Below are positions 30,537 to 44,744 of a stretch of 46,845 bases of DNA, in pieces. The translations under genes were made by a program, and so were the position numbers. The DNA comes from Streptomyces sp. NRRL S-350. GTDB taxonomy: Bacteria > Actinomycetota > Actinomycetes > Streptomycetales > Streptomycetaceae. Each line of letters opens with the position of its first letter. The first letter of the stretch is position 1. The stretch is taken from positions 1-46,845 of the forward strand of contig NZ_JOHO01000055.1 in assembly GCF_000719705.1 (NCBI RefSeq). Direction: 5' to 3'. The notes under the pieces were generated by a model. The model searched no databases. It saw only the letters and a list, made by a program, of their open reading frames with translations, and had not been told where the DNA came from.

Positions 30537-30838
30537 CACGGCCGGTCGGCGGCAGGCATGCGCTTCGCGGCCCGGGCCGCGAACCGCCGTCCGGGGCACA
30601 GGACCGCCATGACACGGCGGTACCCGCAGAGCGAGATCGCCCGGCTCGCCGCCGCCGTCGGCACGCCCGCGACCGCGACGCGGCGTCAAGGTCGAGCCCC
30701 GATCAGGATCGTTCCGTCCCGCCGGACGAGTGAATGCGACCCGCGAGGTGCGCGGCGCCCGCCGGGCCCGTCCCGGGCCGTCGAATACTCGCGCGGTGGG
30801 GCGGACGGCCGCCCCCGCCCGGACGAGGGAGGACCCAG
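30537..30838. other. Intergenic stretch, no gene supported
   Basis: The 302-bp gap before the serine hydrolase contains an ATG at 30609 giving MTRRYPQSEIARLAAAVGTP in a frame that soon becomes Arg/Pro-rich and lacks a ribosome site. It may be the beginning of a decayed gene. The promoter of the lipoprotein gene must lie here; no operator was recognised. Confidence 0.4.
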
Positions 30839-32512
30839 ATGCACCGCCACGGCGCAGCCCGCCGCACCGCGACCCGGCCCCGGCCGCACTGCGCCGCGCC
30901 CCTGCTGGCCGGCCTGCTGCTCGCCGGGTGCACCTCCGCCGCCGCCACCGACCCGGCCGCCGCTCCCACCGGCCCCACCTCCGGCTCCACCTCCGCCCCC
31001 GCCACCGCACCGCCGGCCCCGTCACCCCAACTGACCGACCAGCAGGTGAACTCCGCCGTCGACCGGATCGACGCCTACGTCCAGGACGCCATGCGCAAGA
31101 CCGGCGTGCCCGGACTCGCCCTCGCCGTCGTCCACAAGGACAAGGTCGTCCACGCCAAGGGCTTCGGCGTGCGCGAACTCGGCAAACCGGACGCCGTCAC
31201 CCCCGACACCGTCTTCCAACTCGCCTCCGTCTCCAAGCCGATCGCCTCCACCGTCGTCGCCGGAGCCGTCGGCGGGAAGACCGTGAAATGGGACGACCCC
31301 ATCGCCGCCCACGACCCCGGCTTCACCCTCGCCGACCCCTGGGTCGGCGACCACGTGACGATCGCCGACCTCTTCTCCCACCGCAGCGGCCTGCCCGACC
31401 ACGCCGGCGACCTCCTCGAAGACCTCGGCTACCCGCGCGACTACATCCTCCAGCACCTGCGCGACCAGCCCCTCGCCCCCTTCCGCGCCAGCTACGCCTA
31501 CACCAACTACGGCCTGACCGAGGCCGCCGTCGCCGTCGCCAAGGCCAAGGGCGTCGCCTGGGAGGACCTCGCCGCCGACACCCTCTACAAACCGCTCGGC
31601 ATGAACTCCACGAGTTCGCTGCGCTCCGCCTACGACACCGCCGCCAACAAGGCCGTGCCCCACGTCCACAACGGCAACGGCAACGCAAGCAGCGGCAGCA
31701 CCGGCTGGCAGGTCAGCGCCACCCACAACCCCGACCCGCAGTCCCCGGCCGGCGGCGTCAGCTCCACCGTCCAGGACCTCGCCCGCTGGATGCGCCTGCA
31801 GCTCGCCGAGGGCACCTACGAGGGCCGGCAGGTCATCGACCGGGCGGCCCTGAGCGAGACCTGGCTGCCCCACAGCCTCTCCAACCCGCCCGCCGCACCC
31901 GCCGGCAACCCGGGCCAGTACGGCCTCGGCTGGAACGTCAGCCGCGACAACGGCGGCCGGCTGCGCCTCAACCACTCCGGCGCCTTCGAACTGGGCGCAT
32001 CCACCGTCGTCACCCTGCTGCCCGCCGAGCAGCTCGGCATCGTCGTGCTCACCAACGGCCAGCCGACCGGCCTGCCGGAGGCGGTGGCCGAGGAGTTCTT
32101 CGACCTCGCCGAGGCGGGCCACGAAACCGTCGACTGGCTCACCTTCCTCGGCAAGGTCGTCCCCGCCGCCGCCCTCACCGGCGTCTCGCCCACCGACTAC
32201 ACCAAACCCCCGGCCGGCGCCGCCCCCGCCAAACCCGACGCCGCCTACGTCGGCACCTACGCCAACGGCCACTACGGCCCGCTGACGGTGAGCACCGGCA
32301 ACGCGGGAGGCCTGACGATGAGCCTGGGCCCGAACGACCTGCAGTTCCCGCTCCAGCACTACGCCGGCGACGTCTTCAGCTTCCAGACCCGCGGCGAGAA
32401 CGCGGTCGGCCTCTCCGGCGTCACGTTCACCGTGGGCGCGGACGGGCGCGCCACGAAGGTCACGGTCGAACAGCTCGACCACGACGGCCTGGGCACCTTC
32501 ACCCGCAGCTAA
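30839..32512 (+). CDS. Lipoprotein serine hydrolase (class C beta-lactamase / DD-peptidase fold)
   Basis: 557 aa. Lipobox LLAGC (Cys31), a Ser/Thr/Pro/Ala-rich linker to about 62, then a penicillin-binding-type catalytic domain: SxxK in QLASVSKP (Ser130, Lys133), YxN in AYTNYGL (Tyr221, Asn223) and HSG (NHSGAF, about residue 380) in place of KTG. After it is a C-terminal domain of about 130 residues with the YVGTYANGHYGPLTV start typical of the DUF3471-like tail in these hydrolases. ATG 30839 has GGGAGG at good spacing. It works on the outer membrane face, as esterase, peptidase or D-amino acid hydrolase; beta-lactam resistance is not implied. Confidence 0.9.
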   Translation: MHRHGAARRTATRPRPHCAAPLLAGLLLAGCTSAAATDPAAAPTGPTSGSTSAPATAPPAPSPQLTDQQVNSAVDRIDAYVQDAMRKTGVPGLALAVVHKDKVVHAKGFGVRELGKPDAVTPDTVFQLASVSKPIASTVVAGAVGGKTVKWDDPIAAHDPGFTLADPWVGDHVTIADLFSHRSGLPDHAGDLLEDLGYPRDYILQHLRDQPLAPFRASYAYTNYGLTEAAVAVAKAKGVAWEDLAADTLYKPLGMNSTSSLRSAYDTAANKAVPHVHNGNGNASSGSTGWQVSATHNPDPQSPAGGVSSTVQDLARWMRLQLAEGTYEGRQVIDRAALSETWLPHSLSNPPAAPAGNPGQYGLGWNVSRDNGGRLRLNHSGAFELGASTVVTLLPAEQLGIVVLTNGQPTGLPEAVAEEFFDLAEAGHETVDWLTFLGKVVPAAALTGVSPTDYTKPPAGAAPAKPDAAYVGTYANGHYGPLTVSTGNAGGLTMSLGPNDLQFPLQHYAGDVFSFQTRGENAVGLSGVTFTVGADGRATKVTVEQLDHDGLGTFTRS

Positions 32513-33289: not shown

Positions 33290-33732
33290 CCGAGGGCACC
33301 ACCCGCCACCACCCGCCGTCGCGTCGAGCCCAGCCGTGACCGCTCCCTGCCGTAAGGCCGTCGCACACCGTGACGGACCGAACGCAACCGGGATCCGTCC
33401 TCGACGTCCCGGCCGTCCTCGACGTCCGGTCGGCCTCGACCCGGCCGCCGAGGACGCCCGGCTTGGCCCGTCGCCCGCCGGTGCGCCCCGCTCGGCCCCG
33501 CCCCCGACGAGGCGAAGGTGCCGGGCCCTAACGGTTCGGCGGCCGAATTCGGTTCACGAATTCAGGAAATTTCCCCATCATTTCTCGGGAAGGCGGGGCG
33601 AACCGGACATCCGGCGGGTCGCGGGACTTCTACCCGAACAGCCCGTTGACAGCAGCGCCGAAGGGGAGATTTACTGGCGCCCAGCGCACTGAATTTCCGA
33701 ATTCAGGCATTCGTTTCATGGAGGTGACACGC
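33290..33732. promoter_or_regulatory. AT-rich leader and promoter region of the RiPP locus
   Basis: The 443-bp gap before the precursor gene changes sharply in composition at about 33535: EcoRI-like GAATTC words recur, with CCGAATTCGG (33543-33552) palindromic and CGAATTCAGG repeated exactly at 33557-33566 and 33698-33707. A TTGACA at 33646-33651 followed after 16 bp by GATTTA (33668-33673) is a plausible housekeeping promoter, giving a leader of about 50 nt. Low GC suggests horizontal acquisition or selection for easy melting. Confidence 0.55.
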
Positions 33733-33813
33733 ATGAAGATTCTGTTTGCGATCCGCAACACGCTGAGCGGTCAGGAAAGCCTCAAGAAGAAGGCCTGGTA
33801 CTTCTGGTACTAA
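33733..33813 (+). CDS. Tryptorubin-like (atropopeptide) RiPP precursor peptide
   Basis: 26 aa: a 20-residue leader (MKILFAIRNTLSGQESLKKK) and a C-terminal hexapeptide AWYFWY directly before the stop. Tryptorubin A, the first atropopeptide, has the core AWYIWY and is made from a short precursor by a P450 that installs C-C and C-N crosslinks between the aromatic residues; this core differs at one residue (Ile to Phe). GGAGGTGA (33720-33727), an almost ideal Shine-Dalgarno, lies 5 bp before the ATG at 33733; an in-frame ATG at 33718 overlaps it and is less likely. The gene has about 49 percent GC against more than 70 percent around it. Two P450 genes follow. It was found by reading the DNA; gene finders would miss it. 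Confidence 0.88.
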   Translation: MKILFAIRNTLSGQESLKKKAWYFWY

Positions 33814-33822
33814 GCCGAGGAA

Positions 33823-33851
33823 TTCGTCCCCGCCCCCCGGGCGGGGACGAA
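33823..33851 (+). terminator. Perfect 13-bp hairpin after precursor, probable attenuator
   Basis: TTCGTCCCCGCCC (33823-33835) and GGGCGGGGACGAA (33839-33851) are exact complements with a 3-nt loop, starting 10 bp after the precursor stop and ending 59 bp before the first P450. In RiPP operons a partial terminator in this position keeps precursor transcripts in excess over enzyme transcripts and protects the 3' end of the precursor mRNA. Confidence 0.82.
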
Positions 33852-33910
33852 CCCGGCATCCTTCCCTTCCGACCGACGACCCGTCAGCCCTGCCGGCCCC
33901 GGAGACCGCC

Positions 33911-34969
33911 ATGCCGCTCACCGCCAGCTCGCGCACCCGCACCACGGTGTTCGCGCCGCGCCTCGCTGCCCTGATCCGGGACCACCTGGGCCGGGACGTG
34001 TTCCGCCTGGAGCCCGACACCATCGGAGTGGCCGGCCCCGAGGCCATGGACCGCATCCTGGCCGCCCGCCGCGCCACCGAGACCGAGCGGCCCACCTTCA
34101 AGCCGCTGCACGGCCGCTCGATAGGCCGCCCCGAGGCCGCCGAGATCATGCGGACCATCGGCGCCGACGTGCGCGCGGCCCTGAAGAACCCCATTCCGGA
34201 GAATACCGACCTGAGCGGCCCGTGGCCGATCACCGGCCATTTCTTCCTGCGCGACCTCATTCTCGGGAATGACCCGTACCGGCTCCGGCTGCTGATGAGC
34301 CGCTATCTCGAATTGACGCCGAAACTCACCTGGTCGGTCATCGCGGCCGGCGCCGCACTGCCCCGGCGCCCCCGACGGGACGACCGGCTGACGGCCCTGG
34401 CCGGCCTCTTCACCGACGCCGCCGACTACCAGGACCGCCGCTATGCGATGGGGATGTACCGGCGCGCCGCCGCCCCCGTCTGCTTCACCGTCTCCACCCT
34501 GGTCGCCAACGCGCTCTGGCTCGGTGCGCCGTTCGACGAGGACGTCTCCAACCGCAACCTCATCCACGAGTCGGCCCGACTGCTGCCGCCGTCCTGGAAC
34601 ATCCTGCGCTACGCCTCCCCGGAGTACCCCGCCATCGACCAGCGGATCGGGCCGGCCGACGACGTGCTGGTCCTCCCGCTGCTCTCGCACCGCGACCCCG
34701 CCCTGTGGGACGCCCCGGACACGTTCATCCCCGAGCGCTGGGACTCGATCGACCCGGACACCGCCCCCGGCTACCTGCCGTTCGGCCACAACTCCGAACG
34801 CTGCTGGGGCCGCCACATGGTGATGCCGCTGGCCGAACTCCTGCTCGACCTGATCCGGCGCCAGGGCCTGACCGTCGACCCGCAGCAGCAGCGGGCCAAG
34901 GTGCCGCTGGTCGGACTGCTCGGCGTGGAGGAGGTCCGACTGGTCGGGGGCCGGCATGGCCGCCGCTGA
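33911..34969 (+). CDS. Divergent short cytochrome P450, probable peptide crosslinking enzyme
   Basis: 352 aa, about 50 shorter than usual bacterial P450s. The K-helix ExxR is ESAR (Glu220, Arg223) and the haem loop is FGHNSERCWGRH with ligand Cys298; the PERW meander is present (IPERWDS). The I-helix AGxxT pattern for oxygen activation is not visible: the stretch before the K-helix reads APVCFTVSTLVANALW. The haem loop also replaces the usual second Gly (FGxGxHxC) by Asn. By position directly behind the precursor I infer it to be the crosslinking enzyme, as in tryptorubin biosynthesis where one P450 suffices. GGAG lies six bases before ATG 33911. Its 3' end overlaps the next P450 by 14 bp. 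Confidence 0.85.
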   Translation: MPLTASSRTRTTVFAPRLAALIRDHLGRDVFRLEPDTIGVAGPEAMDRILAARRATETERPTFKPLHGRSIGRPEAAEIMRTIGADVRAALKNPIPENTDLSGPWPITGHFFLRDLILGNDPYRLRLLMSRYLELTPKLTWSVIAAGAALPRRPRRDDRLTALAGLFTDAADYQDRRYAMGMYRRAAAPVCFTVSTLVANALWLGAPFDEDVSNRNLIHESARLLPPSWNILRYASPEYPAIDQRIGPADDVLVLPLLSHRDPALWDAPDTFIPERWDSIDPDTAPGYLPFGHNSERCWGRHMVMPLAELLLDLIRRQGLTVDPQQQRAKVPLVGLLGVEEVRLVGGRHGRR

Positions 34970-36203
34970 GCCGACCGCCCCGTCGCCCGGGTCCGCCGCC
35001 GCAGCCGCCGCTGAGCCACCCGTCACCGAACCGGCGCCGATCGGCGCGGAGTTCTTCGCCCACCAGCACCAGGAGTACCGGCGCTGGCGCGAACAGGGCG
35101 TCGTGCGCCGGGTCCGGTTCGGCGAGCCGGTGCCCATCGAGGGCTGGCTGGTCACCGGCCACGCCGCCTGCCGCGCCGCGCTGGCCGATCCCCGGCTGAG
35201 CAAGGAGGGCGCCGCCGAGCGGTACGGCGCGCTGCTCGGCAACACCGAGGGCCCCGGCGCCGGCCTGATGCACCACATGCTCAACACCGACCCTCCCCAC
35301 CACACCCGGCTGCGCAGACTGGTCCAACAGGCCTTCACCACCCGCCGGGTGGCCGAGCTGCGCCCCCTGGTCGAAGCCCGGGTCGACCGCCTGCTGGACG
35401 CCCTGGCGGGCCGCGCCGAGGCCGACCTGATCGCGGACTTCGCACTGCCGCTGCCCCTCGGGGTGATATCCGACCTGATCGGCGCACCTGCGGACGGCCG
35501 CACCGCCCTGCAGGTGCGAGGCAACGCCGAGGCCGAGGGCGACGGCGAAGTCTCGGTGCCCACCGCCGAGTCGATGCTGCGGCACATCCAGGAGCTGCTG
35601 GACCACAAGCGCGAGCACCCGGCCGACGACCTGCTCAGCGGCCTGTTGGCGGCCCGCGACGGCGACGACCGGCTGACCGGTGCGGAGATCACCTCGATGT
35701 GCTTCCTGCTGGTGCTGGCCGGCCACCAGACCACCGTCAACCTGATCGCCAACGGCTTGCTCACCCTGCTCGACCACCCGGAGGAGCTCGCCGCACTGCG
35801 CGCCGACCCGGGCCTGATGGCCGGTGCCATCGACGAAATGCTGCGCTACGAGAGCCCGTTCGCGATCGCCTCGCTGCGCTACACCACCGAGCCGGTAATC
35901 ATCGCCGGCACCCGGATCCCGGCGGGGGAGTTCGTGCAGCTCGGCCTGCTGGCCGCCAACCGCGACCCGGCCGCCTTTCCGGACCCCGATCGGTTCGACA
36001 TCACCCGGGACGGTACCGGGCACCTGGCGTTCGGCCACGGCATCCACCACTGCCTGGGCGCGCCGCTGGCCCGGCTGCAGGCCGAGGTGGCGTTCGGCCG
36101 GATCCTCCGCCGCTGGCCCGCCCTGCGGCTGGCCGAGCGGCCGGTGTGGCAGGAGAACCCGAGGCACCACGGACTGCTGCGCCTGCCGGTGCTGCTTGGC
36201 TAG
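34956..36203 (+). CDS. Canonical class I cytochrome P450 (CYP105/107-like)
   Basis: 415 aa. I-helix AGHQTT (255-260), K-helix ExxR EMLR (294-297), haem-binding FGHGIHHCLGAPLAR with ligand Cys366; also NTDPPHHTRLRRLVQQAF (C-helix). It starts with an Ala/Pro-rich extension of about 25 residues. The start ATG lies inside the previous gene, so translation is coupled. It is soluble and needs ferredoxin and ferredoxin reductase supplied from elsewhere, as neither is encoded nearby. Role inferred: extra oxidation or crosslink of the peptide made from the precursor at 33733, or a hydroxylase of the product. Known tryptorubin-type clusters as I recall them need just one P450, so this is an unusual addition. 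Confidence 0.93.
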   Translation: MAAAEPTAPSPGSAAAAAAEPPVTEPAPIGAEFFAHQHQEYRRWREQGVVRRVRFGEPVPIEGWLVTGHAACRAALADPRLSKEGAAERYGALLGNTEGPGAGLMHHMLNTDPPHHTRLRRLVQQAFTTRRVAELRPLVEARVDRLLDALAGRAEADLIADFALPLPLGVISDLIGAPADGRTALQVRGNAEAEGDGEVSVPTAESMLRHIQELLDHKREHPADDLLSGLLAARDGDDRLTGAEITSMCFLLVLAGHQTTVNLIANGLLTLLDHPEELAALRADPGLMAGAIDEMLRYESPFAIASLRYTTEPVIIAGTRIPAGEFVQLGLLAANRDPAAFPDPDRFDITRDGTGHLAFGHGIHHCLGAPLARLQAEVAFGRILRRWPALRLAERPVWQENPRHHGLLRLPVLLG

Positions 36204-36220
36204 TGCCCGGAAGGAACCGC

Positions 36221-36274
36221 CCGATCCCGATCCCGATCCCGATCCCGATCCCGATCCCGATCCCGAGCCCGAGC
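36221..36274. repeat. CCCGAT hexamer microsatellite
   Basis: Seven exact CCCGAT units from 36221 to 36262 are followed by two CCCGAG variants. The tract starts 18 bp after the second P450 stop. One frame through it codes for Pro-Asp repeats and continues, open, to a stop at about 36351 (ending TGFDATGVLAVET), but has no start of its own. It can slip during replication and would be length-variable between strains. Confidence 0.8.
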
Positions 36275-36434
36275 GCGATGCCGAGCCGGCCCGCAGCGGG
36301 CACGTGTTCACGGGTTTCGATGCCACCGGGGTGCTCGCCGTCGAAACCTGACGGCGCGCACCTGCCCCGCCCCTTCGAATTCCCGACCGAAACGTCTTGC
36401 GTTGGAGCGCACTTCACGTCCTAGGTTCGGAAGC

Positions 36435-37445
36435 ATGCGATACGTCAAACTCGGAGCGACCGGACTGGAAGTCTCCGCCCTCACCCTCGGCTGCATGAGC
36501 TTCGGCGAGCCGGACCGGGGCGGCGAGCCCTGGTCGCTGGGCGCGGACGCCAGCCGGGACATCATCAGGCAGGCCCTCGAGGGCGGCGTCAACTTCCTCG
36601 ACACGGCCAATGGGTACAGCGCCGGAAGCAGCGAGGAGATCGTCGGCCAGGCGGTCAAGGACTTCACCCGGCGCGAGGAGGTCGTTCTCTCCACCAAGGT
36701 CTGGATGCGGATGCGCCCCGGCCCGAACGGCGCCGGGCTGTCCCGCAAGGCGATCTTCGCCGAACTCGACGCCTCCCTGGAGCGACTGGGGACCGACTAC
36801 ATCGACCTGTACCAGATCCACCGCTGGGACTACGACACCCCGATCGAGGAAACCCTCGAGGCGCTGCACGACGCGGTCAGGTCCGGGAAGGTGCGCTACA
36901 TCGGGGCCTCTTCCATGTACGCCTGGCAGTTCGCCAAGGCCCTGTACCTGGCCGACCTGAACGGCTGGACCCGGTTCGTGTCGATGCAGGACCACTACAA
37001 CCTCATCCACCGGGAAGCGGAGCGGGAGATGCTCCCGCTCTGCGCCGACCAGGGCATCGGCGTGATCCCGTGGAGCCCGCTGGCGCGGGGCAGACTGACG
37101 CGGCCCCGGGACGCCGCCACGGCGCGCGCCGAGACCGACGAGGGCGGCACGATCCTCTACCGCGACGAGGACCAGGCAGTGGCCGAGCGCGTCCACGAGA
37201 TCGCGGGCAAGCGGGGTCTGTCCGCGGCCCAGGTCGCCCTGGCCTGGGTCATGCGCAACCCGGTGGTGACCTCGCCCATCGTCGGGGTCACCACGCCGGC
37301 CCAGCTGGCCGACGCGCTCGCCGCGGTGGACGTCGAACTCGACGACGAGGAGGCCGCCTACCTGGAGGAGCCCTACCAGCCGCACGAGGCCGCCTACCTG
37401 GAGGAGTCCTTCTACAAGCCGCGCCCCGTGGCGGGCTCCCGGTAG
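36435..37445 (+). CDS. Aldo/keto reductase
   Basis: 336 aa AKR of the Gcy1/YdhF-like group (aryl-alcohol dehydrogenase-like). The catalytic tetrad is visible: Asp and Tyr in FLDTANGYSAGSSEE, Lys in VLSTKVWMR, His in LYQIHRWDYDTP; the NADPH-binding end GVIPWSPLARGRL and AWVMRNPVVTSPIVGVTTP follow. The last 30 residues are odd: EAAYLEEPYQPH is followed by a second, diverged EAAYLEESFYKP, matching a 36-bp tandem duplication at DNA level (21-bp exact repeats at 37350 and 37386), so the C-terminus is longer than usual. It lies 230 bp after the P450 pair and could, but need not, belong to that pathway. Confidence 0.92.
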   Translation: MRYVKLGATGLEVSALTLGCMSFGEPDRGGEPWSLGADASRDIIRQALEGGVNFLDTANGYSAGSSEEIVGQAVKDFTRREEVVLSTKVWMRMRPGPNGAGLSRKAIFAELDASLERLGTDYIDLYQIHRWDYDTPIEETLEALHDAVRSGKVRYIGASSMYAWQFAKALYLADLNGWTRFVSMQDHYNLIHREAEREMLPLCADQGIGVIPWSPLARGRLTRPRDAATARAETDEGGTILYRDEDQAVAERVHEIAGKRGLSAAQVALAWVMRNPVVTSPIVGVTTPAQLADALAAVDVELDDEEAAYLEEPYQPHEAAYLEESFYKPRPVAGSR

Positions 37446-43258: not shown

Positions 43259-43367
43259 TGAAGACGGCGGCCCGCCCCAGCGCGCGGCGGGCTGCGCCCA
43301 GGTGAAGATCGACTCACCGAACGCCGCGGGCCGCGGTGTTGCGTCGAGTCGAGGAGTGATCACAACG

Positions 43368-44744
43368 ATGGCAGGCACCAAGGGGATCGGGCGGCGCGGA
43401 CTGCTGACGGCGGTGGTGGCCGCCGCGGCCGCACTGGTCCCGGTGGCGGCGGTCGCCGCGCCGGTGACGCCCGGGGCGGCCACCGCAGCCGCGGACCCGG
43501 CCGCGTCGCAGCGTTCCGCCGTGGTGCGCGCACTGGACGGCGTCGCCCAGCCGTTGCGGACCACCGAACCGGGCGGCCGCACCACCGACCTGCGCGCCCT
43601 GGGCGCGATGATCGGCGACGCCAAGGTGGTCGGCCTGGGCGAGGCCACCCACGGTTCGCACGAGTTCTTCGCGATGAAGCAGCGGCTGTTCCGCTACCTC
43701 GTCGAGGAGAAGGGCTTCACCGCCTTCGCCCTGGAGACGAGCTGGAGCAGCGGCCTGCAGATCGACGAGTACGTCCAGGGCGGGCCCGGCGACGCGCGGC
43801 AGATCGTCAAGGACGCCCTGGGCAAAAGCCCCTGGGACCGCGAGGAGTTCGCCGATCTGATCGCCTGGATGCGCGAGTACAACCGGAGCCACCCGCAGAA
43901 CCCGGTCCACTTCGTGGGCGACGACCTCGGCCTGCCGAGGCTCGGCGACCGGATCTTCGACCAGGTCACCTCGTACGTGCGCGGGGCCCGCCCCGACGTC
44001 CTCCCGCAGCTCGACGGCCTCTACGCGGGCCTGCGGCCGCTCGACGACGTCATCGCCTACCTGAAGAAGCCGCTCGCCGAGCGCCGGGAGAACGCCGCCA
44101 AGGCGCAGCAGGCGCTCGACCTGGTCACCGCGAGCGGCGCCGGCGCCTCCGACGACGCCCACGCGTGGGCGGTGCAGCACGCCCGGAACATCGCCGAGAC
44201 CTTCGCCTTCGCGACCCTGGACATGTCCGACCGGGACTCGGTCTCCGCCGCGGAGCAGCTGCGCGACCGGGCGATGGCGGACAACACCGCGTGGTGGCAG
44301 CGCCACACCGGCGGCAAGGTCCTGCTGTCCGCGCACAACGGGCACGTCGGCTACCTGGCCACCGACACCTTCCTGTACCCCGAGCCGCAGGGCGCACGGC
44401 TGCGCGACACCTACGGCCGCGACTACACGGCGATCGGCTTCACCTTCGACAGCGGCTCCTTCCTGACCAACGACGCCGTCCTGACGGACGATTGGAAGAC
44501 CGTCACGGTGCCGGCGGCCACACCGGACATGAACGAGTACACCCTCGACCGGGTCCGCTACCGGGACTACTACGTCGACCTGCGCACCGCACCCCGGGCG
44601 GCCCGCGACTGGCTGGACACCTCCCGCCCCACCTACGAGGCGGGCTCGGTCTACATCAGCGACCCGAAGCCGCAACTCGCACTCGGCCGGGCCTACGACG
44701 TCCTGATCCACCTGCACCAGGTCACCCAGGCAGAGAAGTTCTGA
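43368..44744 (+). CDS. Exported erythromycin esterase-family hydrolase
   Basis: 458 aa. The twin-arginine signal GIGRRGLLTAVVAAAAALVP (residues about 6-26) shows export of a folded enzyme. The Ere core starts at about 90 with VVGLGEATHGSHEFFAMKQR (the catalytic His and Glu of the EreA/EreB family), FALETSWSSG, then WMREYNRSHPQNPVHFVGDD and VLLSAHNGHVGYLA, which fit this family of metal-independent or carboxylate-based esterases that can open macrolide lactones. Whether it acts on a macrolide is not known; other homologues degrade unknown esters. ATG 43368 gives MAGTKGIGRRG; a GTG four codons earlier is possible. A large terminator follows the stop. Confidence 0.92.
   Translation: MAGTKGIGRRGLLTAVVAAAAALVPVAAVAAPVTPGAATAAADPAASQRSAVVRALDGVAQPLRTTEPGGRTTDLRALGAMIGDAKVVGLGEATHGSHEFFAMKQRLFRYLVEEKGFTAFALETSWSSGLQIDEYVQGGPGDARQIVKDALGKSPWDREEFADLIAWMREYNRSHPQNPVHFVGDDLGLPRLGDRIFDQVTSYVRGARPDVLPQLDGLYAGLRPLDDVIAYLKKPLAERRENAAKAQQALDLVTASGAGASDDAHAWAVQHARNIAETFAFATLDMSDRDSVSAAEQLRDRAMADNTAWWQRHTGGKVLLSAHNGHVGYLATDTFLYPEPQGARLRDTYGRDYTAIGFTFDSGSFLTNDAVLTDDWKTVTVPAATPDMNEYTLDRVRYRDYYVDLRTAPRAARDWLDTSRPTYEAGSVYISDPKPQLALGRAYDVLIHLHQVTQAEKF

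Follow-up and report, generated by a model that had tools for sequence, protein, structure and literature searches.

Atropopeptides are defined in PMC11450843 by three features, a class-defining P450 encoded beside the precursor, a leader motif of the KSLK type, and a tryptophan at core position 2, and more than 650 clusters are reported there for AtropoFinder. ESLK is among the leader variants given in the same paper, and the motif position stated, 17–20, includes two alignment positions that are filled in few peptides (PMC11450843). The described system of most relevance here is the lau-type cluster of Streptomyces laurentii and Streptomyces sp. MMG1121, in which the precursor and the first P450 are sufficient for tryptorubin B, while the Trp-Tyr ether of laurentirubin B needs a second P450, LauB2 (PMC11450843). 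The locus described below has the same composition. It lies in a stretch of 46,845 nt, the whole of which is called the window, and it probably specifies a two-P450 atropopeptide with phenylalanine at core position 4.

Gene layout, borders and upstream elements

The locus is a three-gene cassette on the + strand. A 26-codon precursor gene (33733–33813) is followed by the genes for P450_1 (352 aa, 33911–34969) and P450_2 (415 aa, 34956–36203), which overlap by 14 bases and both match Pfam PF00067. The distance from the precursor ATG to the P450_2 stop is 2471 bases. A Shine-Dalgarno sequence, GGAGGTGA (33720–33727, +), can be read five bases before the ATG at 33733, in agreement with the initial annotation, which had described a 26-codon gene with such a site, an AWYFWY C-terminus, and a position directly 5' of two P450 genes. 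The span proposed there (33543–36203) was accurate in gene content but generous at its left end, as similarity to the same-genus genome G001, the nearest relative with long flanks compared, extends from 33643 to 36209. In a nucleotide comparison with a 49-kb stretch of G001, the only matches of more than 150 bases were 33643–34945 and 35028–36209, and the shared stretch runs from just before a TTGACA motif to six bases beyond the P450_2 stop. Two further genomes of the genus share 33643–34973 (G016, where the contig ends soon after) and 33723–34945 (G005, which has one additional shared stretch, 512–1149, at 67%). Judged from these sequences, the locus is real, intact and conserved in other genomes.

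The downstream aldo-keto reductase gene was considered as a cluster member and rejected, because the G001 similarity ends at 36209 and its relatives are few and distant (31–37%, in six others of 121 loci). Starting 17 bases past the P450_2 stop is a CCCGAT tandem repeat of 10.8 copies (36220–36284). Upstream of the cluster, and outside the stretch shared with G001, lies a gene for a beta-lactamase-family serine hydrolase with a DUF3471 domain (30734–32512), and a predicted erythromycin esterase family protein (Pfam PF05139) is encoded at 43302–44744.

A promoter-like pair, TTGACA (33646–33651) and TTTACT (33670–33675), separated by 18 bases (33646–33675 in all, +), precedes the precursor gene and is kept in the same-genus loci, with TTGAC and TT-x-ACT invariant across four of them. 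Of 86 loci, 23 have a loose promoter-like pattern 5' of the precursor, a count made without a background control, and a strict sigma-70 scan of 33400–36500 returned no sites. Between the promoter-like pair and the ribosome site is an inverted repeat, CTGAATTTCCGAATTCAG (33689–33706, no strand assigned), which is formed by a GAATTC box; no other site of this type occurs in the window, where 0.01 would be expected. Its strict form occurs in 2 of 86 loci, those of the window and L145, and it is a possible operator. Boxes of GAATTC occur around the precursor at 33545, 33558, 33698 and 33820.

Precursor, core and P450_1

The translated precursor, MKILFAIRNTLSGQESLKKKAWYFWY, has 26 residues, comprising the leader MKILFAIRNTLSGQESLKKK and the C-terminal core AWYFWY. 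It matches the NCBIfam tryptorubin family, NF038372, over its full length (2e-13, 50.4 bits, curated cut-off 33), and in a whole-genome search, where it scored 47.7 bits, it was the one NF038372 gene of its genome. Matches above the cut-off were found in 14 of 70 same-genus genomes, that of the window included, in 48 of 394 genomes of a family sample, 41 of 392 of a genus sample around G302, and 30 of 391 of an order sample, these samples overlapping one another; the 14 control genomes gave none. The features that define the class are all present: the P450 next to the precursor is of the class type, judged by homology to the P450_1 relatives, ESLK occupies leader residues 15–18, and core position 2 is tryptophan (A-W-Y-F-W-Y). 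With tryptophan at core positions 2 and 5, the peptide also has the pattern of the bitryptide (xWxxW) subfamily as PMC11450843 describes it.

A scan of a species-genome collection gave 90 confirmed relatives of P450_1, of which 80 were kept (54–87% identity), and in 76 of the 79 named loci a precursor can be recognised next to them. An alignment of 56 rows, chosen from 89 and excluding L100 and L102 because of stops, shows no variation at E220, R223 or C298. In the haem loop, 56 of the 57 loci examined have FGHxxERCW, the exception being FGP in L117, and this loop is a constant departure of the family from the usual P450 form. The structure model is confident (mean pLDDT 87.8, pTM 0.88) and has a long helix at 173–205. 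Its matches in the PDB are P450s, with TM-scores of only 0.43–0.59 among the 50 matches listed, and the best solved structure found by sequence is a weak match (35.9 bits). That P450_1, at 352 aa, might be truncated was rejected, as the match extends over about 327–354 residues in 79 of the 80 relatives and the model is confident; the remaining relative, L121, is cut and represents half a gene. Relatives at 66–68%, with AWYIWY or AWYLWY precursors, occur in records of Collimonas humicola (L091), Dyella marensis (L098) and Burkholderia multivorans (L104), and a relative in Xanthomonas cucurbitae (L100, 6001–7020) is interrupted by a single stop within the part that matches and has an adjacent precursor with the core SWYIWY.

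The family match, the P450_1 relatives and the invariant P450_1 residues all agree with the earlier description of the locus as tryptorubin-like, and a genome search with the precursor and the first P450, which had been proposed as a check, found the small gene conserved, with like peptides beside the P450_1 relatives. On these comparisons, the locus adds one more member to the atropopeptides, a family already known.

As a core sequence, AWYFWY is common among public genomes. Where a core could be recognised, in 76 named loci, it was AWYIWY in 22, AWYLWY in 21, AWYFWY in 14, SWYIWY and AWYGWI in five each, AWYHWY in four, VWYLWY in two, and TWYLWY, AWYVWY and AWYAWY in one each. The initial annotation had called AWYFWY a new core, an overclaim corrected here since 14 of 76 loci carry it; within the genus it is found in 2 of the 14 NF038372 hits, the window and G001. 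Core position 4 is variable in tryptorubin-family precursors, and AWYFWY is its Phe allele. The description as an unreported variant holds for the product, in so far as none with this core was found by string match and titles in the literature searched (the core lists of PMC11450843 stand in figures and supplements, outside that scope), but not for the core, which is present in public genomes. The product of the locus is probably uncharacterised.

P450_2 and the predicted product

P450_2 is full-length in the window, has the haem motif FGHGIHHCLG, and finds its best solved matches by sequence among PikC-type P450s. A search that scored 8000 candidates gave 6385 relatives. Among the best 120, one protein comes from Streptomyces sp. 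MMG1121 (67%) and four belong to S. laurentii (64–66%), with Kitasatospora sp. NPDC001159 supplying the nearest (95%). A tree of 42 proteins places all 23 P450_2 rows of atropopeptide loci, including that of the window, together with these five proteins in one clade of 35 rows at 100/100, which also takes in Nonomuraea and Catenulispora proteins known there from protein sequence alone. Within it, the MMG1121 and S. laurentii proteins belong to a starred set of 11 together with five AWYFWY loci, and the window protein groups with that of G001 and three from Kitasatospora in another starred set, of five. By the identity of 64–67% and the shared clade, P450_2 is likely to be a close relative of LauB2, which is equated here with the S. 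laurentii proteins, as is its counterpart with that of MMG1121, by organism name and clade. The initial annotation rightly recorded two P450 genes but left the second uninterpreted, so missing the relationship to LauB2, which alters the predicted product. More distant relatives of P450_2 are encoded 5' of P450_1, in the reverse orientation to it, in Kutzneria sp. 744 (L115, 4473–5623, 52–57% in two pieces) and in Nocardia pseudobrasiliensis (L117, 4466–5587, 43%).

We consider it likely, with good though not high confidence, that the locus is a two-P450 cluster of laurentirubin type, in which the AWYFWY precursor is cross-linked by P450_1 and then by P450_2. By analogy with characterised relatives, the leader would dock the peptide on P450_1, which would install a Trp2-Trp5 C-C bond, a Trp2-Tyr3 C-N bond and a bond of Trp5 to the backbone (C-N), with a net loss of 4 H. 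P450_2 would then add a Trp5-Tyr6 aryl ether, which costs a further 2 H, and the leader, often together with Ala1, would be removed by a host peptidase encoded outside the cluster. Since P450_2 is related to LauB2, the likely product is predicted to be a Phe-4 analogue of laurentirubin, a rigid cage of linked aromatic rings. The predicted [M+H]+ values after loss of 6 H are 929.3617 (hexapeptide) and 858.3246 (pentapeptide); if P450_2 does not act they become 931.3773 and 860.3402, respectively. Applied to an Ile core, the same rule gives 895.3773 and 824.3402, against published lau ions of 895.3760 and 824.3401 (PMC11450843). Losses of 4 or 6 H had been anticipated in the initial annotation, rightly so, because varsorubin B1, with three bonds, lacks 4 H and the lau products, with four, lack 6 H (PMC11450843). 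Bond number can differ, because a P450 of the atropopeptide class makes fewer bonds on some cores: scabrirubin and varsorubin B2a each carry one bond (PMC11450843). For a four-bond atropopeptide that is probably uncharacterised, these values provide exact mass targets.

The alternative that survives best, although an unlikely one, is that an atropopeptide is made but that the chemistry of P450_2 is something other than the LauB2 ether, such as hydroxylation of the cage or bonding of Phe4. Identity to the proteins of S. laurentii and MMG1121 is moderate, the window protein sits in a separate Kitasatospora set, and a Phe-4 core is found in 12 of the 17 unpicked loci that have P450_2. Against this, the P450_2 clade also serves five AWYIWY loci, one AWYVWY locus, and lau itself (WYIWY product; PMC11450843), so that its activity does not depend on Phe4, and the residues common to the cores served are Trp5 and Tyr6.

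The co-occurrence of Phe4 and P450_2 was counted in the unpicked set of named loci, where P450_2 lies downstream in 12 of 14 AWYFWY loci (the copy in L059 being a remnant) and in 5 of the remaining 60 (Fisher p = 2.2e-8, a value that ignores kinship). Left out of this count were L121, which is half a gene, L042 and L045, which lie too close to contig ends, and L087, L103 and L115, for which no core was recognised. The unpicked set was preferred over an extended table (19 of 21 versus 6 of 63), which adds the window and nine picked loci, six chosen for AWYFWY, one for a P450_2 start that had been seen, and two from the same genus; L150, L155 and L156 were omitted as repeats of loci already counted. 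On the P450_1 tree there are only four independent contrasts on starred branches (P450_2 with Phe 2.0, against 0.1, on average), and the joint change is not significant, a level that four contrasts cannot reach. The association is a hint, and shared ancestry may explain it. It is a speculative and rather doubtful idea that Phe4 and the LauB2-type P450 were co-selected, P450_2 being recruited for, or reshaped by, WYFWY, with Phe4 packed against or bonded to the Trp5-Tyr6 bridge. Such a pair would build a ring system without counterpart in Ile-core atropopeptides. Clusters in which core and tailoring enzyme tend to co-occur could reveal how a second P450 comes to fit a peptide cage that is already folded.

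A second alternative, which we regard as improbable, is that P450_1 acts alone and P450_2 is silent or works on another substrate, giving a plain Phe-4 analogue of tryptorubin that lacks 4 H. Relatives of P450_2 are indeed decaying in two loci, L148 (which matches only residues 32–152) and S. monashensis L059 (7043–7654, a remnant of residues 313–414 in a frame that starts with a repeated peptide), and the AWYFWY loci L065 and L077 have no P450_2. The window copy, however, is full-length, with its haem motif and the overlap with P450_1, and it lies inside the stretch conserved in G001, where the copy is also full-length. Finally, that the small frame is a chance ORF beside P450s of another pathway has a negligible likelihood, for short as the gene is, and with no Pfam model matching the peptide, the full-length family match at 2e-13 and the like peptides in the same place next to P450_1 relatives rule it out.

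Comparison with related and described clusters

The arrangement of a precursor gene followed by two P450 genes is repeated in other AWYFWY loci, for example those of S. katrae (L056), S. alanosinicus (L061), S. endophytica (L066) and G001, which have the core, P450_1 and a downstream P450_2 as in the window. They differ from it by several residues in the leader, and their P450_1 and P450_2 proteins are 75–89% and about 63–76% identical, respectively. A plasmid locus of Streptomyces clavuligerus (L162) likewise has a precursor upstream of a P450_1 relative (74% identity, 94% query coverage); unlike the window, it has no second P450 among its annotated neighbours, and an identical core was ruled out, as that of S. 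clavuligerus is AWYIWW. Clavorubin is presumably the name of the product of this plasmid locus.

The trp/try cluster of tryptorubin A/B shares the NF038372 family with the window, and the cores differ at one residue, Ile4 versus Phe. Tryptorubin needs only the precursor and one P450 (PMC11450843), whereas the window has a second. Closest in composition is the lau cluster of S. laurentii and MMG1121, which, like the window, consists of a precursor, a class P450 and a second P450, and spans 2437 bases compared with 2471; the two differ at core residue 4, which is Phe in the window but Ile in the lau peptide (product WYIWY; PMC11450843).
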